Shown: piece after piece, positions 5,660-64,000 of the stretch | How the letters are laid out: the number at the start of each line of letters is the position of its first letter | How positions within the stretch are numbered: the first letter of the stretch is position 1 | From: Aurelia coerulea | Lineage: Eukaryota > Cnidaria > Scyphozoa > Semaeostomeae > Ulmaridae | DNA length: 64,000 nt | Assembly: GCA_039566865.1 (NCBI GenBank) | Contig: CM076958.1 | Location: forward strand, 1,674,001 to 1,738,000 | Direction: 5' to 3' | Translations under genes and position numbers: made by a program | The notes under the pieces: generated by a model | What the model was told of the DNA's origin: nothing | The model's input: the letters and a program-made list of their open reading frames with translations, nothing else | Database searches by the model: none

Positions 5660-5775
5660 AATAAAGTATCTATGTTCAAATTAAGTATCGAGGAACATTC
5701 AAAAGAGATTAGCCATTGATTAAAGCTAAGTTCACATCGCTCCATCAAACCAAGTCTGTATACTTTTTCTGGGAC
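5660..5775. repeat. Inverted unit of the 103-bp repeat
   Basis: GAGGAACATTCAAAAGAGATTAGCCATTGATTAAAGC..CACATCGC reads as the reverse complement of the 4720-5300 unit. This turns the locus into a large inverted-repeat structure, perhaps one element with subterminal repeats. Confidence 0.75.
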
Positions 5776-15777: not shown

Positions 15778-16305
15778 AATGAACAGTACCTAAAGTTCCT
15801 TTGAAGCAATCATATCAATGGCAGATGAAAAGCCATCCGTGCAATCATGTTAAATATTTGATACCAGTGATCTGATCCCATGTTTTTATGCATCTGATTT
15901 CGATTTCCAGGTATCAAAATAATACCTTGCCAAAATCTGACTTTACTTGAATTTCCTGTGAGATAATTCGTTGAGGCAACGCCTGGAAAAATGTGGGTTC
16001 TGTGGTACACAATTCCTGATACAAGAATGGTACCACCCAGAGTGGTGCAAAGTTGCCTAGGGTTAACACTTGGCATTATTCTGTAGCTGCCTTCCTGCAT
16101 CATGCCATGACGGTGTCATGGCGTGGCGCAGTGGTGTAATTATCTGACTTTGCAGCCAGACCAGTCAGGCGGACAGGGTTTCAGCCCAGTACACGCATCA
16201 TCATTTGAGCGTCATTGCAAGAGGTTGCGGACTCGATTAGGTCTTCTCTTCTTCTGCGATCCCAGTGCTTGGTGCTAAAAACCGCAACTTCACTTCATAC
16301 TCATT
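15778..16305 (+). repeat. Composite repeat with tRNA-derived SINE, sense copy
   Basis: 15778-16110 is shared with 3443-3790 in reverse. 16121-16305 is the SINE: a tRNA-like head of about 76 nt whose ends (GCGTG at 16121, CACGC at 16196) can pair, an exact A-box-like TGGCGCAGTGG, a weak B-box region (GGGTTTCAGCCC) and a body with TTGAGCGTCATTGCAAGAGG. It is not a functional tRNA, since the arms and anticodon loop do not fit a canonical tRNA. Confidence 0.75.
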
Positions 16306-22424: not shown

Positions 22425-23030
22425 ATGTTGTATGAATTGCTTTTCTTAACAGTGATCAATTTTATTTCTGCTTCAGAACGACCAACCGATGTCAATTTAC
22501 TTATCGCTGTTGGGACACCGTTACCCAGAGATGTCGCTCCAGTCACTGGACCATTCGGACATCGAGGCCGTCCGGCTATTGAATTCTCTCCAAATAGCTA
22601 TATCGGACGGTATGCAAGAGACATGTTACCACGGCCGTTCCCAAAGAATTTTGCTATCAAGGTGACAACTTATTTATATACAATGAAAGGAGGTGTGTTA
22701 TTTAGCGTTGTATCGAAAGATCAACACAGAGACTTCCTCATTTTAGAGGTGAAACAAAAAGGAACTAAAAATCAAACTATCCTACTCACATACAAGAACT
22801 CGTATCCTTCAAAAACATATGTTGCAAGATTTGACGTACCGAAGTTCTCCCGACGATGGACGGTCTTTTCGATAGTCGTACGCGACCAAGAAGTTTGGTT
22901 GTACATGAATGGATGCAACGTCGTGAGAGGATTAGCACTGATGATGAGACGTGAGCCATTGCAGATTGAGGAGGATGCTGTGGTTTATGTTGGCAGGGCT
23001 GGATGGTATTCAAGGAAAAGACCATTTTTT
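22425..23030 (+). CDS. Exon 1: signal peptide and most of the TSPN/LamG-like domain
   Basis: The ATG at 22425 opens a hydrophobic leader ([13 protein letters not shown]), with likely cleavage near residue 17 before ERPTDVN. An in-frame stop lies shortly upstream, so this is the first usable ATG. The body has TSPN hallmarks: a DVNLLIAVG start strand, a [11 protein letters not shown] strand, [20 protein letters not shown] carrying the first conserved Cys (residue 164), and a VYVGRAGW strand near the end. One N-glycosylation sequon lies at residue 116 (NQT). The donor GTAAGT follows TTT at 23030, phase 0. A possible acceptor TAACAG at 22417 just before the ATG suggests a spliced 5' UTR. An alternative acceptor at 22476 would remove the leader and is less likely. 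Confidence 0.85.
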
Positions 23031-32000: not shown

Positions 32001-35000
32001 GTTTTTTATTTTAATTTCCCAGGCTCTCACAGAATCAAATTTTTGATAGCTTTGAGTAATCACCCCATACATAATCCACAGACCATTTAACTATTCTGAA
32101 AAAGAATATGAGATACACGTATTTTTTTATAAGAAACTGCCTATAAGAAACTCAACTCTCAGATCGCCAAAAAATTAAGAAACTCCAGTACTGGGAGAAT
32201 ATAAGTTAAGAAACTATTTACTTTGATAAAGAAAATCCTTGACATATTTTTACTTTACTTTCGCTTGTTTCCTGTATCATATTACTCGTAAGGTGCTTGA
32301 GTAATGTCTAAACATTGGAAATGCTTAAAAATCATAGGAGTTGAGTCTGCACGCAGGCTAAAAAAACATTGTTTTGAAATGTTCACGAGGGCACATGAAG
32401 ATTGTTATGGAACCTCAAAGAAACTCATAAGAAACTCCGAGTACTCAAAATCTGATAATTTTAAGAAACTTTCAGTACTGGCCCAAATTCTTAGTTTCTT
32501 ATAAAAAAAATACGTGTAATCGAAGGACATTTTGATACATTTTGAAAATTGTCAAATGTTCACAATAGTGCTAGAAGCTCTAAAGCCACCCAATCGAACT
32601 CAATCGAGCATCTCGCATCTCAGAGCATCGAAGACACATTTATTATGAATAAAATGTTTATTCCGATACCACTACCTTATAGTCTTTATTCGAGGCTAGA
32701 GGCTGAGACTACAATCTCTTAGAAAAGTGTTGGACCCCCTATTGAAAAAATCGAATTTTGCCCCCCCCCCTCCCCCCGTTTCAATGTTGATTGCATTGAA
32801 AAGAGGTATTTTTCATACAGATCCTTCAAAAGAATTATTCGCCAAAGCAAACAACATTGATATGGGGGGGGGGGGGGGGGCAATATTTCCGAAAAACGTA
32901 GCACTTTTGTAAGAGATTGTAGGTAACTTGCTGCACTCACCGTTAAGGTAATAGCCTCGAATAGAATTTAAGGTAGTAGTATCGAATAAATATTTCGTTC
33001 AAAGTTCAAAGTAAAGGTGTCCTCAATGCTCCATGCTGGCATAAAAATTTTATAAAAATACCGCTCGATCCAGGCTTTTTCGTAGAACAGTTATAAGATA
33101 TCCTGAGATATCGCGATGTCTCTGTTTATGGACTTGCTACTTTTTCTTTTTGGATACCCCAAAACCATCCACAAGGAGTCAAATTCGCGTTCAGAATCAT
33201 GGACCACTTGTTGAATGTATTTTGAGGATGTTCAGGGAATTTCTCAAATGTCTAGATTTTCTTTATTTATCCCTCATTCCTGGTAAAGAATCTCTGAGGC
33301 AAATAGTCGAAAATGTTCTTCTGTCGATGACGTTTTTAGGCTTCTTTCCGCCCTCCATGCTGACAAAATACTCCACCTTTCCAGGAGTCTCTGTTTTTAA
33401 AATATTGTTATGCAGCGAACGGAAAGCCAAAAATAGTTTTAAATATTGGTAGAGTTCTCAGCGTGTTACGTGTGTGAAACTGATTGATGGGTGTGTCATT
33501 ATTTCAAGAAAAGAACACTCCTTCGCGAAAATGTTGAGACTGCACGCGGGCTATTGCTTCTCATCCAAGGGCATTGGTAGTTTGAACGAAGGTTGCTATG
33601 GAACCTTTAAAGAAACTCTTGAGTTCTCAAAACCTGATAATTCTAAGAAACTTCCAGTCCGGGATCAAATTCTTATTTTCTTATAAAAAAGATACGTGCA
33701 GTCGAAATGTGTGAACGGAGGCGAAATAATCTGAAATAATCTCATTACTTCAACACTTTTTAAACCTTGAACTGAGAAGTATCGCGCATTTCGAAGTAAA
33801 GAAACTTTCGTAAATATAACTTTGCCTATAATTTAGACCCCGTTTATACGGTGCCGGACTAGTTTTTATCCGAACAAGTTTTTATGATATATGTTGTATT
33901 TTATGTTTAGTTTATTGCTGTATTTCTGTTACTACATACTGCCATTAGTCCTTTCGTTGCTGTTATAATTCCCTTCTTTTATTTTAAAGTATGACGACGC
34001 TCCTGTCAAGTGTAGCAAGTTAACATCATGAAAATTGAAATTGTATCGATAGGGCTTTCGTTTACACGGTACCTCCTTATCCGCACAAATATTTGATCGT
34101 TTATCAGGACAAGAACTTGTACTGCGAAAGCATACAAGTTGTCAACTTGTACGGACAAAAACGTGTCCGGTACCGCGTAAACGGGGTCTTACAATGCTCA
34201 GAAACGACAGAAGAAAAATAAAAAAGTTACTTCAGAATTTCGGCTATCATTTAAACTTTGATTCATTCCGATACTTTAAGCAACATTGCAAATTCTAAAA
34301 CAGTTGAAGTTCTTTTTGGTCCACTTAGTATGTTTGTATATACCCTCTAGAGAGTCTGGTTCCCAGGGTAGTTTGTGCACACTGCACATCTGAATGAAGG
34401 GTTCCATTCCACCCTGACTGTCATGGGCGATGGTTGAAGCCAAAAATTGAGTTGTCTTTGAAAACAGGGGCAAAATATAAAAAAAATGGAAACAGGACGG
34501 AGACAGTAGTCTGAATGGTAAATAAGCACCGCAAGCAGTTAGATTAAATGATTTAATTTCTGGTCAGCAGTCCGGAAGGGCTCGGAGATTTGAGGAAGCA
34601 GACCTCTTTGGCGGGAACTTAGATAATAGGCCTGCAATGTGCAATAATTTGTTATAAGATGACTAATGAGCAAATACAAGGTGTCATCTCTCGAAATTGG
34701 ATATCGTACCACAGTCATATCCTACAGACAATATATCAAACCGCATTCACAAGGCAGGCATTTCGCATTAGATGCTCGCACGTTACGAAGCGTACATATA
34801 CAGCGTGCTCAGAATAAACAACTGAGCTGTTGGCTTTTGCTGAGCAGAGTATATTCAGAATATTAGTGACCTCAGATTGCAGGCCTGCTAGACAGCGAAA
34901 GACCGTATCTGGTTCTCTGCCGTTGCAAGACTCGATAGGATGGGTGCTAGGCCAGTGTTTACAACTTTACTCATACGATGTTTGCTGTTTCAGGGACTTC

Positions 35001-38000
35001 TCTACGATTTGGAGCTTTTATCAGATCCAGATAAAGGAGTTCCAAGATGTATGGGGGCAAAGCTGGTAAGACATTTTTTGTTTGTTTTTGCTTCTATTTT
35101 GTTCGTAAATTTCTAATTAGATTATCTTAGTCGCTTTGTGTTCTGCACCAAGGGGTGTATCCTTTACTCCCACAAGAGAATTTGCAACATATCTATGAGA
35201 AAAACAATGATTTCTAGATAATTTCCAAGGGTGGTTACGTGGTAGACAAGATCAAGAAAACAAATGTATTTCCACGAGATGCTTACGAGATTTCTAGCTA
35301 CTGATATACCTGACGAAATGCAAAATTTTCTGCACTAACAGAGCAAACGTTTGGAACTGATGCGGCAACCGAGGGGTGTATCACTCTCTAAAAATCTCGT
35401 ACACCTTTGGCAAAAATCCTTTTATTTTCAAGAACAATCCGTAAAAATCCCTGAAAACCCTATTGTTTCAAATAAATCTCGTACCCTTTCTTGGAAGAGT
35501 GATACACCCCTCGGCGGCAACTGGGTGCTCGTGCCCCTCAAGATTTTGCGATAATCAAATGAAAATAGTGCTATCGGTGAGGATAATTCTGGCTGACAAC
35601 AGAGCGAAGGGCAATAGATAGAGGGTTGCTTGTTTTACCGTTGGAAAGTAAAATTTGAGTTCTTGCTGATACGATTCTCGTCTCACTTAAAACGGTTGAT
35701 CCTGCAAACTTGATATTTAAAACATGTTGACTTCGGAAATCTTAATTCATTCACTCTGCTTGGAATAGACTAGAGAGGAGTGTTATAGGAAACACTTAAA
35801 TTAAATTAAAATTGGGATTAATCTTCAGAGCAAACCAGGTTTTTATAAACCAAATTTTATGGACCCTGTCGTCCAACAGTGCATGGTTCACAGACTATAA
35901 TAAGCTATAATATGATATGTTACAGGTTACAGAACTAATGCAGAAATCATTATCTTAGGGGGCTCTGTGTATCCCAATGTACAAAGGATGAAAAGTGTGA
36001 TTTACCGTGCCCCTCCCTTCAAAGAAAAAAATTTAGTAACCTCTCCTCTCTAGTAAACCCTACTACTTATATCAAATGCAAATACCAAATATTTGCTATT
36101 TTAACTATTTAGCTAAGCAAGTTTGCATGTTAATTTTGATATGGCTTGAGATAAAACCTGTGTCAAATTTGTGTATTTAACTGGTAAAATTGTATGTTTA
36201 TTCCACAAAATATGGGGTAACAGAACCAACAGCTATCCTTTCTATCAAGCCCCTTTTCTAATAAGACCTTCTCTAGAGTAGAGTCTCTGAAATTAAGAGA
36301 AATTAAGTAAGCCCCCTATGGGCCTAACAAAGCTTTTACGGTATAATATGATAGCTTATGGGCTTTACAGGCATTATCTTTTGGGGAGGAGGAAGGGGTT
36401 TTGTATGCCCATGTATGAAGAATGTCAAATCTGATTTATTTCTATTTCATTGACATAAATTTTCTCGCAGCTTTGAGCTAGGCCAATTAAGGGACCAGAG
36501 CCAGACAGTTTTTTCCGTTCATGATGTGATATTGGGAAACCTGACATCATTACTTCATATTCCATGACAAACTAGATTCCCACCTAAAACTCATCAAAAA
36601 TTCTCAGCCGTTTTAATCCCTAAATACAATTCCTTGATTTGTCTCCCCCTTTGTGACAGTGGCCATATTAGTTCACAATTTGTTGTTGTGGTTGCTTTAC
36701 AGCACCGCTAAACCTATATGCACGCTACGGGGTTGTTTATTCAAGGTCTCTGCTGCTATTATTGCACCATGTTATTTAATAAAGAGCTTTGAAAACTTAC
36801 TGTCACGCGATGATATAACTCTTCACGTGTCACGTGTCATATTTTGAGAAAAAGAAGGGAGTCAATCTGTTCTTTGCCTGAGGGTCGAGGTGCCCAAAAA
36901 TTTACGGCAGGTATGTGTGAAGCTGTGAAGGTACAAACAAAATATTGCCCCACAGCTGGATGGATCATCTAGGGAGGGACAGCACTTCAAGGGCACTGTT
37001 TCATAAGGAGGGCAGGTTAATATGCATCAGATTTAAACATGAATAATGTGATAGACAGCAACAAATAGTGTGAATCCTGAAAGATGTTTGATTTCTTTGC
37101 TCTCCACATCAAAACAAAACGAGAAGTACAGATACCCGAATCTAACATAATAACGAATCTAAACAACATTTTAGCCACATCTCAGTCGTAAAAGGGCACC
37201 TCTTAAACAAAACGGGCACTTTTTGATTTATTGCAAATTCCCCTCTCATGCCGGTTCCTACGTAGCCTACGCGTAGACCCATTATCCCAAAGGAGGAAAG
37301 GGTCTACGAAACAAAGAACAAAGGCTTGCTACGGCCGCCCAATTAATCATTCTAATCCCCTTTTCAGATTATTTGTGAAACGCGTTGAAACCATAGAAAT
37401 AGAATATTTCTATGGCTGAAACAAAGGCTGCATAAATTAAGTTTCCAGAAATCTAGAAACCTCAGTAGCAAGCTTTTGCTCTTTGTTTCGTAGACCCTTT
37501 CCTCCTTTGGGATAATGGGTCTACGCGTAGGCTAGTTCCTACGTCTCTGCGTAGAGGTACTGCTATTAGAGGTACTGCTGTACCTGAGAAGGCGTTATCT
37601 CACAATAAATCAGACTAAGATGGCCTAGATTAGTATACAAACCGCCATTAGAGGGCGTCAGCTTGCACACAAGACAGGCTAAGGAGGCGTTAACCAATGA
37701 ACAAAATCAGTAGACTTTGATCCCTTTGCTGCTGTCATGATACACGGCCCACCGAGAGGCTTTTTGTAGCCTGATCTGGTTATCAGGCTAGGCTTTTTGA
37801 GACTAGTGCAAAAAACTGAACTGGGGGCCCGTAGAAATATTAAATTGATCGAAAAATTGCTATTTAGTGGAAAAATTTGATGGAAAAACCCTAACTCTAA
37901 CGGATGTCTCAAAAAGTACTCCTTTTTGAAAAGTCACCAAAATTTGATTACAGGGCTGATCTTTAAATTTCTTTTTTTGGCGAGTAGATCAAGGACTAAA

Positions 38001-53000: not shown

Positions 53001-56000
53001 AATTCTCAAGAAATCTAAAAAATCTCAAGAATTCTTGGGCTGGAAAACAGTGTTAATGTGTGCAAGGCCTGCTCGTATATAAGAACCTTTTTAAGAACCT
53101 GAGAGGCTGGAATTTAGAATAGCAGCCATTTAATTAAGAACCAATTCAGGCTGCCCAGAAAAAACCTAGGTTCTTTTATGCGGGTTTCTACTGTATTTGA
53201 AATTTAAACATTCTGTTTCAAGTACCTAGACTTGCTCCAAGTCTTGTTCGTTATCTTTTATTCGGGCCTACTCGGTTGGCCCGAAAGTCCACTTTCGCAG
53301 CTCACTGCCAAACGAGTAGGCCCGAATAAGATAACGAATGAGACTTGGAGCAAGTCTATCAAGTACCTTAAAGGGGCATTCCGCAGAAAAAAACCGGATA
53401 TCGGTGAACTGCGTTGTTTGCTTTCAAAACGAATATGCTTATCATTATAAACATTTTCCAATGTTTCTCCAACTTGAATAAAATTCAAACGGGCCAAAAA
53501 CGAAACAGATATTTTTCAAAATAGAGACCGAGAACTCAGCCATATCCTGGAATTTGAATCCGAGACAGAAAACGAGAATTCTCGGTAAAGCCGATCAATT
53601 CTCTTGAGCGTAGTCGACCGTGGACACATGAATGAACGAATACAACAGGACATTCAAACTCAATTTAACGAGCGACGCGCAACTAGCCTATCAAGATTCG
53701 TCGATAACCGACCTACGGACAATAACGAGAATATGCTACCTTTGTTCGCCGAGAACGATGCATAAAAATGATAGGGTATTGAAATTGATATTCTTCTATA
53801 TGTTTTCTTCCATATCTCACGTTTGAGAAGTGCGATCGAGGAAAGGAAAACGATTTCCGAGGGCTGACATAATCTGTTTCTCGATCGGTATGACAGTATC
53901 AATATCTGCATGCATTTAGTTTTCGAGGAATGCCCCTTTAATCAAACTTTAATAGTGTTGTGCTATGAAGTAACTACACTTTCAACCCTTTTATTAAGGA
54001 GATAGATCATAAGACAAAGTGAATTTCTGTTTCTTCAGAGAATGTGAAAGGAAGCAATGAAAGTAGACATACCTTTTGATTTATTCGAGATCTCTGTTTT
54101 TCTCAACTTTACACACCTGTTTCTTTCTAGGGTGAACCGGGACCAATGGGAGTTGAAGGCCCTGCTGGACCAAAGGTAAATTCTTTTTATGAACGTTCAA
54201 ATTTCGTAACTGAAGTGCCACGGACTGCGAAGGAAAAGGATTTTGAAAATTACGAACTTTTGCATTGAAATTTCACGTTTGGCCACACCGCAAACATTTT
54301 TTCTTAAGCTGGATTCGATTTGTTTGGCATTATTAGTTGCGAGATGTTCGGCATTGTTTTGAAAAAGTTCAAAATATCTTTATCACTCACGAGCAAATGT
54401 TCTTTGGCAAGCGATGTTTTGTGAAACAGACAAACGTTTTGCTGGGAAAGCGCATCTTAGAATTTAGGCAAACGATATTTGGTTTTGAGGGTGGGAGGGC
54501 GGGAGGCTGTGAGGCACAATGAATCTTTTCTCATCCCAGGGGTTTTGCTTATCTAATTGTCATATGTTGGAAGCAAAAGGCCCATTAAGAATGCTACCTT
54601 TTGGAAAATCTTGCAACGCAAAATCGCAAATAGTTTCTGCAAACTAAAATTCTTATAATTAGTTTAGTCTTTCTCTTAAATTATGTAGCTTCAATCAAAA
54701 AGTTGTCGGATCAAAATAAAACCTCGCAAGACTCACCCACCCCCCTTGTTTTTCTGATTTTACTTACCATAAAGAGGGCAACAATTATCTTATTGATTTC
54801 ACAGCAATGATAATTCTTTGTTTACCTCTGCAGGGAGAGAATGGCTTCCAGGGCATGAAAGGTCAGAAAGGTATCGAAGGACTTGAAGGAAAACGCGGAC
54901 TGACAGGCCCGACTGGACCACAGGGACCTCGAGGAATCCAGGTTTGCATATATTGTTGACTGCCAATTGGCATGAAAATATTAATTTGGATCAGTCTCCC
55001 TTGAGATAATCTTCCATGCTCGATACAGTTCACTGTGAGGAAGGCACTGTTATTTGTTGTTTTGGTGACTTGTTGTTTTCCCTTTTGTTGAGAAAAGCTG
55101 CTAGCCCTTAGACAACAATCTGTTTGGTTTAGAGGTAAACGGAGCACAGATTTTGGATACAGCTTAATTTGAGGGTCTTAGTCATACGTATTTTCACATC
55201 AGTGACTGCGTAGGCCAAGAGTTGCCTTTTTAAAAGCTTCATTTCACCTCCCGTTTAGAAGTTTACATTTCGAAAACGTTTCATGAAAATATTATGCTAC
55301 TTTCCCTCTTTCGAAGGAGATCTTAGCTTTTACCGTAAAGCAAATATAGCCAAAACGGCATGGAAAAACAGTTTTACTCTACATAGTTTGTGTTCGTACT
55401 TTAGTTAGAAAGATTGATGGTGTCGTTTTCAAGTTGCAAGAAATGTTTGGAAACCTTGTTACCTTATGATCCTTCAATAAGTAGGCTTCAATCCCATCCT
55501 TTAATCATTTCTAGGAACAAGGGCAGATTTTGCAATACAATAGCATGAGTTGCTTTTGTTGACACCTCAATTCAAAGCGATTAGCGATCACTGACAAAGG
55601 AGATTCTCTCAACCAGTAATTCAAAACAAACAAAGCCGCAAAATTTTCTCTGAAACCCAGGTAGCTAGCTCGCTCGCTGTGCATTCCAGAAATTATTTTT
55701 AAGGGCAAACATGAGCATAGATAGAAAGAAGAAGGATATATCTACACATCTGCCGCGGGCATTTAATTTCTTTGGCCCAGAAGCTGAGCAGTAAATGTTT
55801 TGATAACACGCAAAAAAATGAGAGAATTGAATCGCCTCCTAAACGGCTTTTGAACCAAACAAATAAAATGCCCGCGGCAGATGTGTAGATGCATCCTTCT
55901 TTCGATCTATCCTCGTGTTTGCCCTTAAAACAGTTTCTGGAATGCACAACGAGCGAGCTAGCTACCTGGTTTTCAAAGAAACTTTTGCGGCTTTGTTTGT

Positions 56001-59000
56001 TTTCAATTGCTGGTTGAGAGAATTTCCTTTGTCTGCAATCGCTAATCGCTTTGAATTGAGGTGTGAACAAATGCAACTCATGCTGTTGTATTACAAAATC
56101 TGCCCTTGTTTATTTCTAGGCTATTCTGAAATGGTAGCTCCAAATAATAGAAAGCTCCTAACCCGTAAATTGTTAAGGGGTCTGCTTCAACCAGCATGCC
56201 TTGCACTAGACTTATGACGATGAGTCCCTCGTATCCCTGTGCTTTTAGACTTCAAAATGGCGCTTCGGTCAACAGACCCTGTTGGGCAAGGTTTACTGTA
56301 GGGATACAAGGGACTCATCATCATAAGTCTAAAGCCTGCCTCCTTGTTAATAAACCATTTTTTGGTGCGCGATATTTTAACTATGATGTGACTTATTAAC
56401 TATTGCTGTCTCGCAGGGATATCCAGGAACCAGAGGTACTCCAGGAATGAAGGTACATATTTAACTCTGCTATTTGGTTATTTGGATATTTACTTTCACC
56501 CCGAGATAGACCATCTGGATCAATTTTATTGTTTATTATATGAATTATGTATATGTATGTATCTATTTGCCATTAAAAATGATTCTAAAAAGCTAGAAAT
56601 GGATACAATACAATTTTGACACAATTTCAGTAAATACGTGTAAAATTGGCAGGGATAGCATCAAAAGGTCAAATGTTCCCTTATTTCCAAAATGGATGGT
56701 TAAGATTCTCTATTTGGATTCATTATAAACTTGATTCATAACTTTTCTATTTTCAAACGGACTTTTATGGCCCTAAACGTCGGGATGCATACGGAATTTA
56801 ACGTTGAAACTATGGTGGCCACAGATTTAGGGAGTAGGAAATTGAGAAGATTGTTATTAATAGCTGCCATTCAAATCATTTTTCCTGAGCAGAAAACATT
56901 TCAAGCAGCTTCTCTAAGTTTTCCAATATTTATCGAGGATGAATTGTAAGTCAACTACAATTAAAGTAAGTTCAATTTGTACCTTGTATAAATACTTCTT
57001 GATATTCGGTAACTATAAGTACCAAATTGACAATGTTTAATGATATATTGATTTGTAGCAACAAACTCTTGAAGCCAAGTTTCATTTTTGCAGGGAGGTA
57101 GAGGTGATGAGGGGAAGCAAGGTGTTACAGGTCTGCCCGGAACAAGAGGAGCAAAGGTAAAAGAGCCTATGTATTTGTATAGATGTCTGCATAATTATGT
57201 TAGCTCTCAAAACATAACATGAAGAAGCGAGATACACCAGTTTCCTCTAGCCTGAGGCTTTATTTATACTTATTGCTTTCATGGGCTAAAAAATAGATTT
57301 GTTAAAACATATTTATCACTGATGTAATGTATAAATCAGTTGTTGTATCAAGACAAAAATGCGCCTGTATGAATTTATTTGACAGCACGTAGCATTGCCG
57401 TTTCATGAAGCAAAGAAGTTTCAGGAAACATTTCTGAGAGAAGCTAAACATGGAGTGTAGCAGATTTCCACTTGTTTCCTCCCTCAAGTTTCAGTTGACA
57501 ATAAATTGTAGTTTGCTTGGCATTTCATTATATCAACTACATTTCTGCAATCACATTTGGTCGGTGAAATACTAAAAAGAATTAGTGAGAAGATGAAGGC
57601 AAAGAAACAAGACTTTAAATCAGCACACTAAGGCCTTTCGAACTTATGTTGTTAGTCACACTCTGAAGAGAACATAAGTTCGAAAGGCCTTGGTGTGCTG
57701 ATTTAAAGTATTCGTTCTTTGCCTCCATCTTTTTACTAATTTCTGCAATTACATAGTCAGAGAGGTGATTGTTTCTACCCAGCATCCGAAAACAGATTTC
57801 AGAGCCACTGAGAAGCTTAGCTTATCGAAGCTGTCGTATTCTCCTTCCTTTTGGTGTGACTGTGCCTCGTGATTTCTCAAAGTAGAAGTTTTAGTCCCAA
57901 AAGTTGAAAATGTCTACTATGCTATATTTTTTAACGTTTTGTTACCTTTTTAACAAGTTCCCTGCATTATATTTCACCCACGTTTGCCCCTAACCATGCT
58001 GTTAATTCATTTCGTTACAGGGAGAGCCTGGTGATTACAAGATCATTGAAATCACAGGACCAATGGTAGGCATCTCTGTTTTTGTTTTTATGAAATTATT
58101 TGACCAGATTACATTCATTAGGAAATCTGAAAAAAATCTACTGAAACTTTCTATTATTTGCAATTTTCATTTTTGCCAGCAACTAAGACTTTAGAAAGTT
58201 TTATTACATCTTTAAAATTCTCTTTATTTTCAATATACTGAGGATTAATGGCTCTTGATTTCTCATCACAAGAGTATATGCTATTCCTATATTTATGAAA
58301 GTGTATCCTATATCTATGCTCTTTAGTTATACTCTCTATCACCTCCCCATCCCAGTGTGATACTAATAGTCATTTTCTGTCAACAAATTCCCGATATGAT
58401 AAGATAGCATTTCTTCTATTTCACAGGGACCGAGTGGCAAAAAGGGAGACAGGGTTCAAAAAGTTGAGATTGAAGAAGCAATTATAAAGGTAAATATCTT
58501 CCATGATTTTTAAATTGATTGATTTATTTGTTCATTTATTTGTTCACTTGCTCGCTCGCTCACTCATTCATTTATTCTCTCGCTCATTCATTCATTCATT
58601 CATTCATTCATTCATTCATGCATTCATTCATTAATCGTTTGATCCCCTTGCTGTGACGAAACATCAATTTGTGAGGCTCGAACCACTTTTAAAGTAGTCC
58701 ATTGCCTTTCTCCTGCAAAGAGAATTGATCCCAAGTAAATATGGCTCCGGACTCTCTCGTTTAGTGTCTGTTTTCGATCTTTTAACACACCTCATATGAT
58801 GGTCGATTTTCTTTTAGTTATAAACTACATCCTGGAACTATCTATATCCTCTGCAAGTAGACTAATTTGTACGTTACTCATTCATTGTCTTATTCCTTAG
58901 GTATTATCAACACAAGTCGATGGATGCTCGAGTATCAATGGAAATGCCAGTGACAGCACTGTAAGCCTATTGACAATTATTTTCATCTTTCCCATTTTTT

Positions 59001-62000
59001 ATAAACTTCATTAGGAAAGGTTAGGGAGTAGGCAGCAAGGTTTACTAACTTCTGCAACGAGTCTAAACATAGCTGACTGCACTTGAGGATCTATTTGTGT
59101 ACATAAACGAAGCATAAACAAAGTATAGACTATCACAATAGTGACTGTCAAGAGGCCGATAAAGTGTTTTCTTTCTGGGAACTGTAAAAATTTGGTCAAT
59201 AATTTCTCTGACAATTCTTTGTATTATTCGACTACTTATAGAGCATTCCAGAATTGTAGAATTTGACAGAAAATTTGCAAAATTAATTGCGTAGAAAAGC
59301 TCATGAATCGGAGGCTCAAGCTTGTGTTGCTGCGTTCTCTTGATCTTATAGCTAGAATTTCATTTTTCATATTTTATCATAGTAGCCTTTTATTTTTGTT
59401 GCAGTTAAGAGTGCATTCTGTTAAAAAGTATCACCAATTTGAGCTCTACCTTTTTTGAAAGAGCATCAAAGATATGAAGTAAATTAGAATCGAAATTTCA
59501 ATTCAGATTGTCTTTATACATTCAAAGTAACTTTTATTTTTTGCTCCAGGATGACCCATCTTCAAGAAAATTAGCTGTTTGTGGAAACTCACAAATTGTT
59601 TCTCAAGTCCTTGCAGTAAATGGAAGCAAAGGTGAACCAGGGATTGCTGGTCCATTGGGGCCTCAAGGAGAGCCTGGGACGGATGGTAAACATGGCCAAA
59701 AAGGTGAAAAGGGTGCTCGAGGAGACAACGGAGAGTTTGGTACACAAGGATTTCCTGGCGCGCAAGGCCCACCTGGACGCATGGGTATTCGAGGGCATAA
59801 GGGACAAAAAGGGGCAAATGGTACGATTGGACCTGAGGGATTAAAGGGAGAGACTGGTCAAAAGGGAGACAATGGAATTGGAAGTAAGGTAATGATGATT
59901 GTAACTGATTAATTAATTGATTGATTACTAAACTTGATTAGTTAATTGTTTAATTTACACCAAAAATATACAAGAATTGTAATGTTTATATTTCAGCCAG
60001 TGGCGAACAGTTGGGGTGCCAGGGGGTGCGATCGCCCCCCAATGTTGGCAGAACAATGATCTTTTGTTTGAAAACAATAGAAATAAATAATTCTTTTCAG
60101 CTGAAACCATAGCTTCGCCCCTCCTAGAATTTGGCAAAGTGTCCGCCACTGATTTCAGCTTCTGAGTTGGGTGTCTGAAGATGTCTGAAGCTGAAGTTTA
60201 GATTCATCCTTATTCTTTCGACAAATATGAGTGTGTTCATTACTTCTCATAAAAACCCCTTTTTGCAAGCAGAGCAAGATAGCCACAACTTTGTTTCATG
60301 TGACATTTTGAACCTGAAAAATGTGTAGCATTTAAAAGCCAACTTTCAAGCAAAATAGAGCGACCTGAATGATTCATTTCAGAACTTTTTGCTGTTCATC
60401 TAAATTTATGATACATCCTTGTCACCCCTCGTTAGTTCCTTGTCAGAATGCCATGCTCAAATGCAGGACTGTTAAAAGCTAAGTTTTCAGTGAACAAATC
60501 TTCTGATTTTTTGTAGGGTGAGAAAGGAGATGTAGGACCTCCTGGACAAGTGGTAAGACATGTTCTATTCTTTAAGCTTTGACGGAATTAGTATTCTTTA
60601 AAGACCCATTGTACACCAACAGACTCCATTATGAATAGGCCATTTGTTTGAAGATTGGTTTGTGGCGTCCAGTCATGCATCCAATCTGTTCTCTTAAGAA
60701 ATTGGTATTGCCCTTATAGTTTCTGAAACATAGATTCTGCGAAGACGCCGTAGTCCCATCCCACGGCATCGTTGGAGCCGCCAATGTCCTAACTAAGGTT
60801 TTGTGCTGACGTAGCATATACAGCTCGCGAGATTATTCGAAAGAAGTTTCCAAAGTTTCTTAATTTTTCAGTGGGTAGAAGAAGGATTGTGCTAGATTGT
60901 GTCCCGGAAAAGCTATGGTTCTTTGAAGGGAGCTTATTCTTTATGCATACAACTCCGTTTAATTGTGGTCCGCTTTTGCTTCTGAACATAAAGCATTTTT
61001 GTAGTTCAACGTTTACACTACCCTATTTTCGCAAGCGAAAGCACTGTCTGTTCCCACTACTCCATTTTCTTTTAAGAACGAAACTTTCGAATCACAAACC
61101 AAGAGAACCAAAACATTTTGTTTCTGTGATTTAATAATTTCTGACGTTTGAAGTTTCAGATCTGGTCAAGGGCCTATAAAAGCAACGATTTTTTATTCTG
61201 TTTAATTTCAATGCTTTGAAAATGTTCTCGTGTGTTTCCTTTGTTGACAAAAACGGCGAAATCATTGGCTGATTAGCATGATATTTGACGATTTAGGCAT
61301 GTCCCTCTGCAGCCAATAAGGATTTGATCTCTATGCTGCTCATTTATTGTATTGCAGCGAATCGAAAACATAAGAGGGAGAAAAGGATCTCGTGGAACTT
61401 CTGGAACGCCTGGTGCTCCTGGCTTCGATGGTGCAAAAGGCTGGAAAGGGGAGAAAGGAGACAAAGGAAGTGTTGGACCACAAGGGCCAATTGGCTACAC
61501 AGGGTTGCCTGGTTTGAAAGGGGTTCCTGGTGTAAGAGGCCCTGTTGGACTCGTTGGACCGCGAGGACCTGCGGGAGATCAAGGAGCACGTGGCAAAGAC
61601 GTAAGTTTGTTTTAGTTGTCTCGAAAATAATGTTATATAAACTGCATTACTTCAGTTCAGTTTAGAAAGATGGTCTGTAATAACATACAATCCTGCCAAA
61701 AGTCCTTGGAACACATAGGCCATTTCTTGATAATCCGGATTTCTGTCAATAGAGAATAATTTAAGCACCCTCTCACCCCCGAAACAATGTTGATTTCAAG
61801 TTTATTGTCCCAGCATTCCACCAAGAGTCTCGAATCGTCCTGCCATCTCCATTTTATCATCACAGAACAACATTGTTCTGAGAAGAAGAGGGAGAAATCG
61901 TAAACAATGCAAAATTTGCAAAGATGTTTTTGCAGGCATTGTAGTGCAATGATATTAGGATGGCTAAAACAAAAGGGACATTGCATTACAAAGACTTTTA

Positions 62001-63772
62001 TACACCATTGGCAATTTTTTTCAAAAAAGATTCATCAAAAATCCTCAAAAATTCATTTTTTCCGATAGGAGTTGGTACACTTTTCACAGTAGTCAAACGA
62101 TTTTTAATTTATCACTGATCAAATAAACGAAACCTTTGTTTTTTTCATCTGTTTGAGTTGCTTATCAAGTAGCGATATCCACATAGCATGATTCTATTTA
62201 GAACTGATTTTCGTTTTTGATCTTCATTTGTTTTTTCTTTGTCTTTTGCTTTGTGTTTTAAGCTTATATTATTGTTGCAGGGTGGACCAGGAAAAGATGG
62301 AAGCAAAGGAGATAAAGGAGACGGTGGGATGAAAGGCAACAAGGTGCGTTTTTATTACGAAATAATTTTCTTTGATTAATTTTAAACTTTGCAACATAAA
62401 GGGGCTCTGTCGCCAAATTGTAAACAAATCTGTAAACACCATTGTTTGAGGCACATGTCCATTGTCTTCTACAGTTTCACAATACATATATACTTAATTA
62501 CTATACTTATAAGCTACTCTACTCTACTACAAGGACAAGACCATGGGGAGCATCTACCCACAACAATAATTATGTCTACGGTTTATTTGGTGGCTTCACC
62601 CAAGACACAAAAAGTAGCTGTGAAAAATCCACTTATATCTGAGCGGTCGTAAGAGATAGGAGTGTTTGGTTTGTTACTTTGTAAAGTACAAAGGTTTATC
62701 TTCAAAATGACGCTTTCATTTTGCAAAGGGATGAACTCTCTGTGTGATATCGTCTTTCAAAAAGCTGCGGAATCTGGAGATTTTGAGACGGAGCGCCCTC
62801 AAGTGTTATGATGAACTGATACAAAATATTTCCTATTTGTTTTGTGTCGTGTTTTTTTCCTTTTCTTTCTTTTGTCGTTCCATATTGCTGAGGTAGATTA
62901 CCAGGAACAAGGACTAAAATTTTTTCCCGTTTTAACCCTACGAGTTTAAAAGTTCAAATTTTCTTTTTTGACCAGTAATCTGCCTTAGCTGTGTTGTTTT
63001 GTTTTCTGTTTTGTGTAATGTATCTTTGATTTTGTCGTTTTTTGTTCTTTGTTTTGTGTATTGAAAATTAATTTGAATTGTAAGTGCCATCCATAGTGAA
63101 GACCCGGTGACTTTATGTCTTTTTTATCATGGATGGTACAGTGTAATGTAAGTATAAATATTGTAGTTTTTAATCTTGATAGAAACAAAAACAAAAAATA
63201 CAAATATTTTCTTCGATGTTCTTCGTTTTTTGCCTTCAAAACTATCAAAGTTAACATGCACTGTTTCTACTATTGCTTACCAGATTTTCTTTTTCACAGG
63301 GTGAAGTAGGAGATGATGGCCGCGATGGCCCCATTGGACCGAAAGGACTTAAGGTATATTTTCTTATCTGTTCTATGCGACCTTGAACTTAAGTAATTCT
63401 CCTGTTGTAGCTGAAATAGTTTCATATCGTACAGGTGCCAATATCAAAGCTTCTGGATGCTTACTTGTTTCCTGGCTTTTGGGGAGGAGGTAGACGGAGT
63501 ACCTTTGTCTGTTATTTCCATCGTTCCCCAGAGGCCAATTGTTTTTACATATGATATGTTTACAACTAAAACCAACCAATTTCACATCTGAAATTTTCCT
63601 TTTATGATTCACTTTTCAGGGTGAACCAGGAACTCCTGGAGAGACAAGATTCGTAAAAGGGATTCTGGGACCACGAGGAATTCAAGGCACAAGAGGACCT
63701 ATTGGTCCCATTGGCCCTGTTGGACCAACTGGCCCTCCTGGCCCACCTGGAATCTCACCTACGCTACCTCCG
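22425..63772 (+). CDS. Large secreted collagen gene: TSPN + mucin-like repeat + interrupted Gly-X-Y (multiplexin-like), 18 exons, 3' end outside window
   Basis: Joining 18 exons with GT/AG borders gives 2,489 open codons, and every intron is phase 0. Domain order is signal peptide (about 1-17), TSPN/LamG-like domain (about 18-226), Thr-rich mucin-like region (227-1987), then interrupted collagen triplets (from about 2000). The product should be exported and trimerise as an extracellular matrix collagen. TSPN plus mucin plus many short helix interruptions is the arrangement of collagens XV/XVIII. Fibrillar collagens instead carry one long unbroken helix, which is not what is seen here. The endostatin domain that would prove the class is not in the window, so a FACIT-like or cnidarian-specific collagen remains possible. 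The exon chain is my model from splice signals and frame; a 5' UTR exon and small missed exons are possible. Introns 1 (12.0 kb), 2 (5.7 kb) and 5 (5.3 kb) are inflated by mobile elements. Confidence 0.85.
23095..23856. mobile_element. Two head-to-tail AAGAAACT-type MITEs (copies g and h) in intron 1
   Basis: Copy g (23095-23456) opens TACACGTATTTTTTATGAG and has the family order of words. Copy h (23465-23856) starts TACACGTAATTTTTATGAG and is in the opposite interior orientation. Both are 360-390 bp. Confidence 0.82.
24229..24310 (-). mobile_element. LINE 3' tail fragment with ATC microsatellite
   Basis: ATCATCATCATCATC is followed by AATAGCATAAAAGCTCTACC. On the minus strand this looks like a LINE 3' UTR ending in an (ATG)n tail. 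No coding part is left. Confidence 0.45.
24520..24962 (+). mobile_element. LINE 3' end with RT C-terminal remnant
   Basis: 24538-24789 encodes [20 protein letters not shown] and further residues, the C-terminal Cys/His segment typical after LINE reverse transcriptases. A 3' UTR follows, ending in the simple tail GAAAATCTGAAAATCTGAAA. The RT core is absent, a strong 5' truncation. Confidence 0.7.
25016..25425. repeat. GC-rich cluster of GGCTGGCTCG / CGAGCCAGCC motifs
   Basis: At least ten copies of GAGCCAGC or its complement. Two longer direct blocks (TACATGGAAGTGAGCCAGCC...GGCTGGCTCG) start near 25103 and 25242. The block contrasts sharply with AT-rich flanks and resembles an inverted/direct-repeat mobile element. 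Confidence 0.75.
27458..28120. repeat. Diverged dispersed repeat, copy 1
   Basis: Shares GGTGGGTGTAAAATTC, ATTACAGCGTAT, GACGTCA and TTTTGCTTGATACCATAT in the same order with 29952-30440. It contains a foreign piece at 27525-27610 (AGGCCTTTCGAGCCT) related to 57630-57690, and a 31-bp tandem duplication at 28021-28083. Confidence 0.7.
28374..28515. mobile_element. AAGAAACT-type MITE, partial copy i
   Basis: AAGTAAGAATTTGAGCTAGTACTG and CGTGAACATTTCAAAACA match one half of the family; the other half is missing. Confidence 0.65.
28990..29165. repeat. ATTCC-rich degenerate satellite
   Basis: Repeated ATTCCAT words over 170 bp. The complementary TGGAAT-rich DNA lies at about 30460-30990. Confidence 0.6.
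29331..29514 (-). repeat. TTTAAAGGGA-type repeat, inverted copy
   Basis: Reverse complement of the 20579-20772 copy (TTTAAAGGGAATCTAAGCAT at the left, GTGGCTTGAGCCAC at the right). Confidence 0.82.
29952..30440. repeat. Diverged dispersed repeat, copy 2
   Basis: Same word order as 27458-28120, diverged by many substitutions. Confidence 0.7.
30640..30812. mobile_element. Small inverted-repeat element
   Basis: AAGGCTAATTTCCAGTCGGT at the left is answered by ACTGACTGGAAATCAGCCTT at the right, with GAGTGGGCGGAATT against AATTCCGCCCGCTC inside. A second left-end copy lies just upstream (30597-30640). Confidence 0.8.
31357..31756. mobile_element. G-run-ended inverted element with TACCCTTGGCTAGAC subrepeats
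   Basis: CACGGGGG (16 G at 31362-31377) and CCCCCGTG (12 C at 31740-31751) are inverted ends. Inside are six or more copies of AATGGTACCCTTGGCTAGAC at 40-60 bp spacing. Confidence 0.75.
32115..32519. mobile_element. AAGAAACT-type MITE, copy j, TA-flanked
   Basis: CACGTATTTTTTTATAAGAA at the left and AAAAAAAATACGTG at the right, with TA on each side. It splits the surrounding repeat between GAGA and ATCGAA. Confidence 0.88.
32645..33000. mobile_element. Palindromic element with an inner G-run MITE
   Basis: The outer arms (32645-32696; 32950-33000) pair through TTCGAGGCT/AGCCTCGAA and ACTACCTTA/TAAGGTAGT. An inner element (32708-32924) pairs CTACAATCTCTTA with TAAGAGATTGTAG. It carries C10 at 32761-32770 and G17 at 32864-32880. 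Confidence 0.75.
33545..33697. mobile_element. AAGAAACT-type MITE, partial copy k
   Basis: Right half only, ending TTATAAAAAAGATACGTGCA. Confidence 0.65.
33834..34191. mobile_element. TTA-flanked MITE, second copy of the 177-558 type
   Basis: GACCCCGTTTATACGGTGCCGG and CCGGTACCGCGTAAACGGGGTC are inverted ends, bordered by TTA on both sides, as for the copy at 177. The interior differs (TTTTTATCCG/CGGACAAAAA-type words), so it is a relative with a different filling. Confidence 0.85.
34994..35065 (+). CDS. Exon 2: C-terminal strand of the TSPN domain
   Basis: A 72-bp exon (residues 203-226) lies between a good acceptor (TTTGCTGTTTCAG) and donor (GTAAGA). It encodes [19 protein letters not shown] followed by MGAKL. 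This is the closing motif of TSPN domains: a G-x-L-x-D-L strand, an S-D-P turn and the second conserved Cys (residue 221), expected to pair with Cys164 in exon 1. It completes the domain exactly where exon 1 stops (KRPFF | GLLYDL), which supports both exons although 12 kb of intron separates them. Confidence 0.88.
35368..35516. mobile_element. 148-bp hairpin element
   Basis: CCGAGGGGTGTATCACTCT pairs with AGAGTGATACACCCCTCGG, and inside AATCTCGTAC recurs on both sides. Confidence 0.82.
36045..36343. mobile_element. TACCGTAAAAGCTC-type MITE, copy C (left end lost)
   Basis: The interior (TTTGCATGTTAATTTTGATA, TTTAACTGGTAAAATTG) matches copies A and B. The right end AAAGCTTTTACGGTA is intact. 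Confidence 0.75.
36965..37550. mobile_element. GAGACGTAGGAA-type MITE, copy C, interrupted
   Basis: Interior GCACTTCAAGGGCACTG and GGGCACTTTTTGATTTATTG match copy A. The right end GGTTCCTACGTCTCTGC is split by the 37263-37534 insertion. Confidence 0.75.
37263..37534. mobile_element. Long-TIR element with 9-bp target duplication (MULE-like)
   Basis: TIRs of about 70 bp (TAGCCTACGCGTAGACCCAT at the left, its inverse at the right). GTTCCTACG is duplicated at 37254-37262 and 37535-37543. The intact site GGTTCCTACGTCTCTG exists at 6404. Nine-base duplications and long TIRs are typical of Mutator-like elements. No transposase. Confidence 0.88.
38136..39085 (-). repeat. GGGGCTCCGTCGCC-type repeat, split by a LINE
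   Basis: The ends GGAGCTCCGTCTCCAA (left) and GGCGACGGAGCCCC (right) are inverted. The body matches 39680-39925 and 62400-62805 in reverse (TGGTGGCCTGGGTGAAGCC and others). Confidence 0.72.
38259..39036 (-). mobile_element. 5'-truncated LINE with a 137-bp target duplication
   Basis: 38259-38395 and 38900-39036 are identical direct repeats of 137 bp. Between them (38396-38899) on the minus strand is a LINE 3' end. It has an ORF remnant (38786-38529) with [15 protein letters not shown], a motif usual near LINE ORF2 C-termini, and a 3' UTR ending in a TGAAAATGAAAATG-like tail. The tail sits exactly at the duplication border. Confidence 0.85.
39680..39925 (+). repeat. GGGGCTCCGTCGCC-type repeat, diverged copy
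   Basis: AAATTGTAACCAAATCTGTA, TTTGGTGGCTTCC and AAGGTTTATCTTCAAA follow the same order as at 62400-62805. A short hairpin GGTGGCTTC..GAAGCCACC is inside. Confidence 0.7.
40332..40512 (+). repeat. tRNA-derived SINE, separate copy
   Basis: ATATGGCGCAGTGGTATAAT with the A-box-like TGGCGCAGTGG, a B-box-like GGCTCGATACC at 40388, and the family body TTGAGCGTCATTATAAGAGG and CTGCGATCCCAACGC. Its left flank differs from the two composite copies, so the SINE moved on its own. It lies 260 bp before exon 3. Confidence 0.78.
40776..46058 (+). CDS. Exon 3: giant Thr-rich mucin-like repeat exon (1,761 codons)
   Basis: A single open exon runs from acceptor TCTGTCAACAG to donor GTAATT, phase 0 at both ends, and encodes residues 227-1987. 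Composition is dominated by Thr, Lys, Glu, Pro and Ser, with very few aromatics and no Cys that I can find. About 290 irregular Thr-rich residues come first, with basic patches such as KKKRR and RRK. Then come about 60 units of a 14-residue repeat of the type [14 protein letters not shown], then eight 28-residue units, then about 340 non-repetitive Thr/Ser-rich residues. Dense Thr/Ser-Pro suggests heavy O-glycosylation and an extended rod. Vertebrate collagen XVIII has a mucin-like segment in the same place but far shorter. The next exon continues in frame. Confidence 0.9.
41650..44150 (+). repeat. 42-bp coding minisatellite (14-residue units), about 60 copies
   Basis: The period is 42 bp (example: GAAGCAAAAACTACCTCCAA plus 22 further bases), counted directly from line spacing. 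It alternates a constant half (TTSKPEV or TTSRPEV) with a variable half ([35 protein letters not shown]). Units carrying PTAKVEQ recur at roughly 42803, 43013, 43349, 43643 and 44021. These are intervals of 5, 8, 7 and 9 units, so a higher-order block of variants has itself been duplicated. Length is a multiple of three throughout, so copy-number change keeps the frame. Confidence 0.95.
44313..44984 (+). repeat. 84-bp coding repeat (28-residue units), 8 copies
   Basis: CCAGCTACT starts recur every 84 bp from 44313 to 44901, giving eight units that read [20 protein letters not shown] plus AQTTTKVE with variants. Each is a pair of diverged 42-bp units, so this array grew from the same ancestor but expanded with a doubled period. 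The stretch at 44481-44648 (variant [11 protein letters not shown], then [11 protein letters not shown]) is repeated nearly verbatim at 44817-44984, a 168-bp superunit. Confidence 0.92.
46549..47345. mobile_element. Foldback element with about 200-bp inverted arms in intron 3
   Basis: Left arm 46549-46770 and right arm about 47155-47345 pair through GTATGTGGCCGATATTC, TTGGTAAAATCACTCATC and AGAAACTACGAAAAT-like words, with moderate divergence. Between them are a smaller hairpin (CTGGTCCATGATTTACTT at 46775, inverse at 46877) and a TAGCTATTCT MITE (46895-47063). The right arm ends about 25 bp before exon 4. Confidence 0.78.
46895..47063. mobile_element. TAGCTATTCT-type MITE, copy d
   Basis: TTTTAGCTATTATTCTGAAAAG at the left, CTCTTTAGTAGAATAGC at the right, family interior TTCGAATGTGCACAATAGTG. 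Confidence 0.78.
47372..47500 (+). CDS. Exon 4: first Gly-X-Y triplets plus Cys-bearing spacer
   Basis: A 129-bp exon (residues 1988-2030) with acceptor TCATTTCTAG and donor GTAATT. Thr-rich text continues for 12 residues, followed by five collagen triplets ([15 protein letters not shown]). A spacer then carries Cys2015 and an N-glycosylation sequon at 2027 (NVT). It marks the change from mucin to collagen. The Cys could link chains. Confidence 0.85.
47604..47876. mobile_element. TACCGTAAAAGCTC-type MITE, copy D
   Basis: Interior TTTTACCCCATATTTTGCGG and AATAGAGCTTTTACAGTA match the family in reverse; the left end is worn. Confidence 0.7.
48131..48545. mobile_element. TACCGTAAAAGCTC-type MITE, copy B (complete)
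   Basis: TACCGTAAAAGCTCTATTAC at the left and TGATAGAGCTTTTACGGTA at the right. The interior is rich in CCCCCTCTCTAATAAG words. It lies in intron 4. Confidence 0.85.
48789..48857 (+). CDS. Exon 5: non-collagenous spacer ending at the helix start
   Basis: A 69-bp exon (2031-2053) with acceptor TCTCGTTCAG and donor GTACGC. It encodes a Thr/Lys spacer with Cys2046 in [12 protein letters not shown]. The last triplet GLK runs straight into the first long collagen run of exon 6. Confidence 0.8.
49653..49735. repeat. TAGCTATTCT-type MITE, partial copy e
   Basis: TTTTAGCTATTCTAAATCTT and TTTTCGAATGTGCATAATAG match; the right half is absent. Confidence 0.6.
50590..51530 (-). pseudogene. Decayed LINE ORF2 C-terminus
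   Basis: 51442-51236 (minus) encodes [20 protein letters not shown] and EEYIEHLC, the Cys/His segment at the end of LINE ORF2. Upstream frame is broken by stops and the rest is unrecognisable. A 26-bp direct duplication (TTTTAGCCAACCATGTTTAT) lies at 51140-51188. The left boundary is uncertain. Confidence 0.55.
52790..53194. mobile_element. TA-flanked MITE with CAGTAGAAACCC ends
   Basis: CAGTAGAAACCCGCATAAAA at the left and its exact inverse at 53167-53192, with TA on both sides. AAGAACC words recur inside. CAGT-starting TIRs with TA duplications suggest a pogo/Tc1-mariner mobiliser. Confidence 0.85.
53227..53358. mobile_element. Hairpin element with 9-bp target duplication
   Basis: Arms TAGACTTGCTCCAAGTCTTG and inverse, about 50 bp each, holding TTCGGGCCTACTCG. 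TCAAGTACC is duplicated exactly at 53218-53226 and 53359-53367. MULE-like by duplication size. Confidence 0.88.
54131..54175 (+). CDS. Exon 6: collagen, 5 triplets
   Basis: A 45-bp exon ([15 protein letters not shown]) with acceptor TTCTTTCTAG and donor GTAAAT. It starts with a full Gly codon and ends after Y, and its length is a multiple of nine as in classical collagen exons. Confidence 0.88.
54834..54941 (+). CDS. Exon 7: collagen, 12 triplets
   Basis: A 108-bp exon, acceptor ACCTCTGCAG, donor GTTTGC. Twelve perfect triplets run from [12 protein letters not shown] to GPRGIQ. Its length equals the 108-bp unit common among fibrillar collagen exons. Confidence 0.9.
55516..56111. mobile_element. 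Foldback element with about 250-bp TIRs and 9-bp target duplication
   Basis: Left arm about 55516-55772 pairs with right arm about 55864-56111 (for example ATGCCCGCGGCAGATGTGTA on one side, TACACATCTGCCGCGGGCAT on the other). ATTTCTAGG is duplicated at 55507-55515 and 56112-56120. Mutator-like. It sits in intron 7 and contains no transposase. Confidence 0.88.
56207..56331. mobile_element. Small hairpin element starting TAGACTTATGA
   Basis: TAGACTTATGACGATGAGTC pairs with GACTCATCATCATAAGTCTA, and CGTATCCCT with AGGGATACA. The first seven bases match the 53227 element, so they may be kin. It lies 86 bp before exon 8. Confidence 0.82.
56417..56452 (+). CDS. Exon 8: collagen, 4 triplets
   Basis: A 36-bp exon [12 protein letters not shown] between TGTCTCGCAG and GTACAT. 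It is too short for ORF scanning but is placed firmly by the frame, the triplets and both splice sites. Confidence 0.85.
57094..57156 (+). CDS. Exon 9: collagen, 7 triplets with RGD
   Basis: A 63-bp exon between CATTTTTGCAG and GTAAAA encoding [19 protein letters not shown] plus AK. It contains an Arg-Gly-Asp tripeptide at 2119-2121, a possible integrin motif, although RGD inside a triple helix is often cryptic. Confidence 0.88.
57590..57740. mobile_element. Hairpin repeat with AGGCCTTTCGAACTTATG
   Basis: AAATCAGCACACTAAGGCCT and its inverse AGGCCTTGGTGTGCTGATTT flank a short centre. A related single arm lies at 27545-27610. Confidence 0.8.
58021..58065 (+). CDS. Exon 10: collagen with a 6-residue interruption
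   Basis: A 45-bp exon between TTCGTTACAG and GTAGGC reading GEPGDY, then KIIEIT without glycine, then GPM. This is the first break in a run of about 31 triplets (GLK of exon 5 through exon 10). Confidence 0.85.
58427..58489 (+). CDS. Exon 11: end of helix and start of non-collagenous spacer
   Basis: A 63-bp exon between CTATTTCACAG and GTAAAT. It has three triplets (GPS GKK GDR) followed by [12 protein letters not shown], an amphipathic heptad-like stretch that could form a short coiled coil between helices. Confidence 0.82.
58548..58635. repeat. ATTC tetranucleotide microsatellite
   Basis: About a dozen ATTC units with GCTC variants at the left, in intron 11. Confidence 0.9.
58901..58960 (+). 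CDS. Exon 12: Cys-containing non-collagenous spacer
   Basis: A 60-bp exon between TATTCCTTAG and GTAAGC. It encodes [20 protein letters not shown] with Cys2182 and an N-glycosylation sequon NAS at 2188. It is the only exon here without a collagen triplet downstream of exon 3. I place it by splice sites, phase 0 and continuity with exons 11 and 13. Confidence 0.72.
59550..59888 (+). CDS. Exon 13: spacer then long collagen run
   Basis: A 339-bp exon (2194-2306) with acceptor TTTTGCTCCAG and donor GTAATG. The first 27 residues are spacer with Cys2204 and a sequon NGS at 2217. These are followed by 27 uninterrupted triplets starting [12 protein letters not shown] and including a second RGD (2250-2252). 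The end has a one-residue slip (GI then GSK). With exons 11-12 it makes a spacer of about 59 residues with two Cys. Confidence 0.9.
60517..60552 (+). CDS. Exon 14: collagen, 4 triplets
   Basis: A 36-bp exon [12 protein letters not shown] between GATTTTTTGTAG and GTAAGA. Identified by triplet pattern and phase-0 splice sites. Confidence 0.85.
61358..61600 (+). CDS. Exon 15: short interruption then 25 collagen triplets
   Basis: A 243-bp exon (2319-2399) between TTGTATTGCAG and GTAAGT. Six non-collagen residues (RIENIR) are followed by 25 perfect triplets beginning [12 protein letters not shown] and ending GARGKD. Length is 27 x 9 bp. Confidence 0.92.
62281..62343 (+). CDS. Exon 16: collagen, 7 triplets
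   Basis: A 63-bp exon between TTATTGTTGCAG and GTGCGT encoding [20 protein letters not shown] plus K, a strongly charged helix segment. Confidence 0.88.
62400..62805 (+). repeat. GGGGCTCCGTCGCC-type repeat, copy with insertion
   Basis: GGGGCTCTGTCGCCAAATTG at the left, GAGACGGAGCGCCCTC at the right. The middle holds a foreign piece (62486-62575) resembling the LINE 3' region at 1075-1190. Confidence 0.72.
63300..63353 (+). CDS. Exon 17: collagen, 6 triplets
   Basis: A 54-bp exon between TTTTTCACAG and GTATAT encoding [18 protein letters not shown]. 54 bp is the classical collagen exon unit. Confidence 0.88.
63620..63772 (+). CDS. Exon 18: collagen with a 4-residue break, entering a new spacer; last exon in window
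   Basis: A 153-bp exon (2439-2489) between CACTTTTCAG and GTAAAT. Three triplets, a break (RFVK), then 11 triplets ending GPPGPPGIS and PTLPP, which starts the next non-collagenous spacer. The donor is intact, so the gene continues past the right edge. Confidence 0.9.
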
Positions 63773-63812
63773 GTAAATACATTTCCAAAACTTTTACATT
63801 TTTTCGTGCTTG

Positions 63813-64000
63813 GATGATAACGAAATACAAAGAATAGGAGAATTGAATGGCTACTGATCCTAATGACTTTCTACGACTGTAAAAAGTGATAACGATCAGC
63901 CCTCCTTTGTTTCAAGGCAGTCTGTTGTGCATCTGATTGGATGATAATGACAATACAAAGAATATGAGAATTGAATGGCTACTGATCCTAATGACTTTCT
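63813..64000. repeat. Direct repeat, two copies of about 60 bp, period about 129 bp
   Basis: TTGGATGATAACGAAATACA...GAATGGCTACTGATCCTAAT recurs from about 63938 to the window end. It may continue beyond. Confidence 0.8.

Follow-up and report, generated by a model that had tools for sequence, protein, structure and literature searches.

A candidate multiplexin-like collagen gene with a giant repeat arm in Aurelia coerulea

The window analysed here, 64,000 nucleotides from the scyphozoan Aurelia coerulea (GenBank assembly GCA_039566865.1, contig CM076958.1, positions 1,674,001 to 1,738,000 of the forward strand), holds what is likely one gene encoding a secreted, trimer-forming matrix collagen with a multiplexin (XV/XVIII-like) layout, that is, with a signal peptide, a TSPN head, a long repeat arm, an interrupted helix, and a C-terminal part beyond the window. 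The + strand gene model consists of 16 exons, all in phase 0 and each of a length divisible by three, and their joined frame opens with an ATG at 22425 and stays free of stops for 2,446 codons, up to a splice donor immediately after 63772, with the gene continuing past the window end (64000). An earlier note on this sequence had described the gene with 18 exons: its ATG, its long TSPN-like open reading frame, its giant exon 3, and its Gly-X-Y exons up to 63772 were all recovered, while the exon count was not, as 16 exons were modelled and one further candidate was seen at 48789-48857.

Gene model, head and collagen region

The modelled exons and the repeat array within exon 3 are as follows.

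22425..23030, + strand: exon 1, 202 codons, donor gtaagt; likely signal peptide (called by eye) and most of the TSPN/laminin-G-type domain
34994..35065, + strand: exon 2, end of the TSPN-type domain with its second Cys
40776..46058, + strand: exon 3, 1,761 codons, giant Thr/Lys/Glu/Pro-rich linker; alternative 40731-46058, 1,776 codons
41631..44995, + strand: 42-bp (14-residue) tandem repeat array of 80 copies, within exon 3
47372..47500, + strand: exon 4, 12-residue linker, the first 5 Gly-X-Y triplets, and a 16-residue non-collagenous stretch with Cys
54131..54175, + strand: exon 5, Gly-X-Y
54834..54941, + strand: exon 6, Gly-X-Y
56417..56452, + strand: exon 7, Gly-X-Y
57094..57156, + strand: exon 8, Gly-X-Y with RGD
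58021..58065, + strand: exon 9, Gly-X-Y interrupted by 6 residues
58427..58489, + strand: exon 10, last part of a Gly-X-Y stretch, then the beginning of a non-collagenous one
59550..59888, + strand: exon 11, remainder of the non-collagenous stretch of exon 10 with Cys, 29 Gly-X-Y triplets, and 2 more residues; has RGD
60517..60552, + strand: exon 12, Gly-X-Y
61358..61600, + strand: exon 13, 6-residue interruption, then Gly-X-Y
62281..62343, + strand: exon 14, Gly-X-Y
63300..63353, + strand: exon 15, Gly-X-Y
63620..63772, + strand: exon 16, Gly-X-Y interrupted by 4 residues, ending in PTLPP

The order, strand, phase, and domain logic of exons 1-16 suggest that they are spliced into one mRNA. 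Scanning for splice signals after exon 3 gave 12 phase-0 candidates on the + strand versus 2 on the - strand, the latter count leaving out 40701-46100 (with the repeat array counted, there were 48 - strand candidates). The 12 candidates comprised 11 of the 13 modelled downstream exons and 48789-48857, while exons 4 (acceptor 6.6) and 6 (donor 5.1) scored below the scan thresholds and were not recovered. Because the modelled exons themselves (15 acceptors, 16 donors) had served to train the splice matrix, their re-finding is partly circular, and only the contrast between the strands is therefore informative. Exon 2 was top-ranked among the phase-0 candidates between exons 1 and 3, and in a second scan it was the only + strand phase-0 candidate in 23031-40700, with none on the - strand. 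Exon 3 has at least two in-frame acceptors, one at 40731 scoring 11.5 and one at 40776 scoring 8.0; use of the former would add 15 residues, one Cys among them. The additional candidate at 48789-48857 is in phase 0, has splice scores of 10.3 and 9.2, lacks Gly-X-Y, and is possibly one of the two extra exons of the earlier note. Exons 6 and 7 are separated by an intron that contains an inverted repeat at 55516-56110, with 189-nt arms that are 90% complementary and lie 217 nt apart.

Exons 1-2 are predicted to encode a laminin-G/TSPN-type domain, which carries a Cys pair (C164 and C221, 57 residues apart), the second one coming from exon 2. For exon 1, 15 relatives were listed, and the 14 that aligned showed 48-68% identity. 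Sequence profiles alone detected the domain only barely, and searching PDB sequences with exon 1, alone or joined to exon 2, returned only matches with E above 1. The predicted structure of the head, a model of medium confidence, matched TSPN-domain folds including collagen IX NC4; a single-sequence structure model was poor (predicted local distance difference test, pLDDT, 41) and was kept out of the fold searches. Collagens XV and XVIII are not known to have a solved TSPN structure, and the match to collagen IX is consequently non-discriminating.

Within the window, exons 4-16 encode 124 Gly-X-Y triplets in seven stretches. The six interruptions between them are 2-36 residues long, and two of these contain Cys. 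The Arg-Gly-Asp motif (RGD) occurs twice within Gly-X-Y, in exons 8 and 11. The Pfam Collagen profile matched with an E of 1e-52. The interrupted collagen region of the earlier note is supported. Counting triplets in runs of at least four over 46059-64000 gave 115 on the + strand versus 6 on the - strand, and 200 mononucleotide shuffles of that interval gave a mean of 0.02 triplets and a maximum of 4. A clade B fibrillar collagen (V/XI type, NvCol7) was also considered and rejected, given that such a chain has a near-uninterrupted main helix (NvCol7 is described with a single interruption there; PMC12549020) and the Aurelia chain has six in 124 triplets.

The repeat arm of exon 3

The linker of about 1,760 residues in one exon, as claimed by the earlier note, was borne out by an open frame of 1,761 codons. 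Its non-repetitive flanks (855 and 1,068 nt) have no in-frame stop, with 11-26 stops in each other forward frame, and for each flank 2,000 mononucleotide shuffles yielded none free of stops. Between them lie the 80 in-frame 42-bp units, which extend over 3.36 kb without indels and of which 48 are distinct: ~60 units of one kind with higher-order duplication are followed by ~20 that have diverged further and alternate over 28 residues (this arrangement being judged by eye), and 10 of 72 pairs are identical at an 8-unit lag. Thr-Thr at unit positions 7-8 is invariant in all 80 units although the codons vary. The ratio of nonsynonymous to synonymous differences (pN/pS) over all sites of the repeat copies was 0.67-0.79, which is a hint only, the copies not being independent. 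The array probably changes its copy number by unequal exchange, and the length of the arm should therefore differ between alleles. A - strand open reading frame at 41366-44374 was rejected as a gene, as it mirrors the stop-poor repeat, and both the open unique flanks and the Thr-Thr constraint belong to the forward frame.

Exon 3 consists of 28% Thr, 12% Lys, 11% Glu, 11% Pro, 9% Ala, 7% Ser, and 7% Val, and has no Cys and five N-glycosylation sequons. Charged residues make up 28% and are near-balanced (261 Lys+Arg versus 226 Asp+Glu). Mucin-type Pro/Thr/Ser domains are recognised by Ser+Thr of at least 40% and Pro above 5%; here, Ser+Thr is 35% overall, and 6 of the 34 100-residue windows reach at least 40%. 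The earlier description of the linker as mucin-like stood as far as its Thr-richness is concerned, while by the mucin criterion the composition appears only marginally mucin-like, and in its chemistry the arm looks less like a classical mucin than like a lubricin-type repeat rich in Lys and Glu. The arm may be O-glycosylated, but given this marginal composition the "O-glycosylated rod" pictured in the earlier note stays a conjecture. Ser-Gly pairs, as putative glycosaminoglycan attachment sites, were counted in exon 3 only and number two, at residues 210 and 215.

Pfam and NCBIfam profiles gave no family for exon 3 at E up to 1. A protein search with exon 3 residues 1-300 yielded 6,735 candidates, none with E of 1 or below, and one with a shortened composite chain, in which the TSPN part was scored, yielded 277 candidates, none with E of 10 or below, both among database proteins of 0.55-1.75× the query length. 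Relatives outside this length range would escape both protein searches; even so, neither lends support to a shared layout.

Known collagens, rival explanations and a possible role

The closest described counterpart is a "collagen XVIII-like" chain of Nematostella vectensis, which a 2025 matrisome paper (PMC12549020) reports to carry a laminin-G/TSPN motif at the N-terminus, then an "unrelated Mucin-like insertion" and discontinuous collagen, the order also seen in the Aurelia gene. The likeness is one of described layout. In vertebrate collagen XVIII, the longer N-terminal isoforms carry a mucin-like domain and others are without it (PMC10702473). Multiplexins are described with 9-11 triple-helix sites, a thrombospondin-type domain at the N-terminus, and endostatin at the C-terminus (PMC10381214), and the fly and worm XV/XVIII orthologues with fewer collagenous domains (PMC7852327). 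Collagens XV/XVIII share with the Aurelia gene a TSPN domain followed by interrupted collagen, and Cys in both the TSPN domain and the collagen region (PMC7852327, PMC10702473). The multiplexin likeness proposed in the earlier note is upheld for the TSPN-type head, the Thr-rich exon, and the interrupted collagen; the Aurelia C-terminus lies beyond the window, so the likeness to endostatin-bearing multiplexins covers the head and the interrupted helix only. The mucin-like domain of collagen XVIII precedes TSPN and is far shorter than the Aurelia arm.

The structural novelty suggested by the earlier note was weakened by the Nematostella chain with TSPN and a mucin-like insertion (PMC12549020) and by the mucin-like domain of collagen XVIII (PMC10702473), both being in print. 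The layout is already known, and what is added here is the repeat unit, the 1,761-codon exon, and the size and chemistry of the arm. In the open-licence literature, supplements excluded, no published arm of such size was found, and the main text of a mesoglea paper (PMC13089338, Sci Adv 2026) names neither collagen XVIII nor multiplexin, endostatin, or TSPN, while the passages retrieved from PMC6626399 deal with other proteins. In its chemistry, exon 3 resembles the mucin domain of lubricin/PRG4, for which KEPAPTTP tandem repeats, polyproline-II structure, and O-glycans are reported (PMC12262190, preprint); both have Lys/Glu/Pro/Thr tandem repeats, which is a similarity of chemistry only and not shown ancestry. 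Lubricin, however, is not a collagen, and its mucin domain has ~31% Pro (PMC12262190) versus 11% in exon 3.

Several observations weigh against one gene whose chains all carry the arm: of the 15 modelled acceptors, those of exon 3 (8.0) and exon 4 (6.6) score lowest, exon 3 has the second acceptor at 40731, and the introns among exons 1, 2, and 3 are long (12.0 kb between exons 1 and 2, 5.7 kb between exons 2 and 3). The acceptors would fit a scenario in which exon 3 is alternatively spliced or part of another transcript, leaving most or all collagen chains without the giant arm. Exons 2, 3, and 4 are all in phase 0, so that skipping exon 3 preserves the frame, and vertebrate collagen XVIII isoforms with and without a mucin-like domain (PMC10702473) offer a precedent, while translation of the arm in some form is favoured by the invariant Thr-Thr and by the absence of stops in the unique flanks; I regard this scenario as a minor but real possibility. 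The long introns would fit exons 1-2 and exons 3-16 belonging to two neighbouring genes, which seems highly improbable given that all exons are in phase 0 on one strand, that their order is that described for the Nematostella chain (PMC12549020), and that the exon 2 donor is good (9.0).

The gene could also encode a FACIT-like fibril-associated collagen with a Thr-rich insertion rather than a multiplexin. FACIT collagens (IX and relatives) have a TSPN-type head like that of the Aurelia gene (the NC4 fold match), an interrupted helix, and a Cys motif at the last collagenous/NC1 junction, and none is known to carry a giant Thr-rich arm. The fold match to collagen IX does not discriminate, and the nearest described chain with such an insertion was named collagen XVIII-like by its authors (PMC12549020), which makes a FACIT-like identity unlikely, although it is, next to skipping of exon 3, the chief alternative to the favoured reading. 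The length of exon 3 may further have been inflated or altered during assembly of the tandem array, as the copies are near-identical and form higher-order repeats, with identical pairs recurring at the 8-unit lag; the unbroken frame over 3.36 kb, the 48 distinct units among 80, and the greater divergence of the last ~20 units speak against this, and such an artefact is considered rather improbable.

For the favoured single multiplexin-like gene, three chains would join via the C-terminus and the Gly-X-Y parts, and the trimer would reside in the basement membrane or the mesoglea, where extended hydrated polyampholyte arms could keep the anchored helix and the TSPN heads far apart. Mucins extend by roughly 0.25 nm per residue, and if this applied to the arm, the reach from head to helix would be ~0.4 micrometres. 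The heads might thereby reach partners, e.g. glycosaminoglycans or other matrix proteins, and the arms might space and lubricate the matrix layer. It is a tentative idea, and not the most probable outcome, that a collagen has here gained, between TSPN head and helix, a polyampholyte brush of ~1,760 residues in each chain that is lubricin-like and variable in length, acting as a long-reach tether or a lubricating mesoglea spacer with repeat number differing between individuals. If expressed, the arm would give a basement-membrane-type collagen a very long linker, and it would serve as a natural test of a repeat-expanding lubricin-like brush tuning matrix spacing in animals without cartilage. 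The locus supplements the Nematostella report in that its repeat unit and its exon layout are defined, and length variation and glycosylation are directly testable.

Other features of the window

Scans of the whole window for tRNAs and Rfam families gave no matches. Upstream of the collagen gene, the - strand at 1475-3307 holds an open frame of 611 residues that encodes a reverse transcriptase domain (Pfam RVT_1, E 1.4e-28) and is a retrotransposon remnant, of non-LTR type by eye. A tandem array with a 103-bp period and ~5 copies occupies 4765-5297, and close to it are two inverted arms (5204-5428 and 5544-5768). The segments 3438-3736 and 15828-16127, ~12 kb apart, form inverted pairs of 211 nt (94% complementary) and 91 nt (92% complementary) and are probably two copies of one dispersed element.
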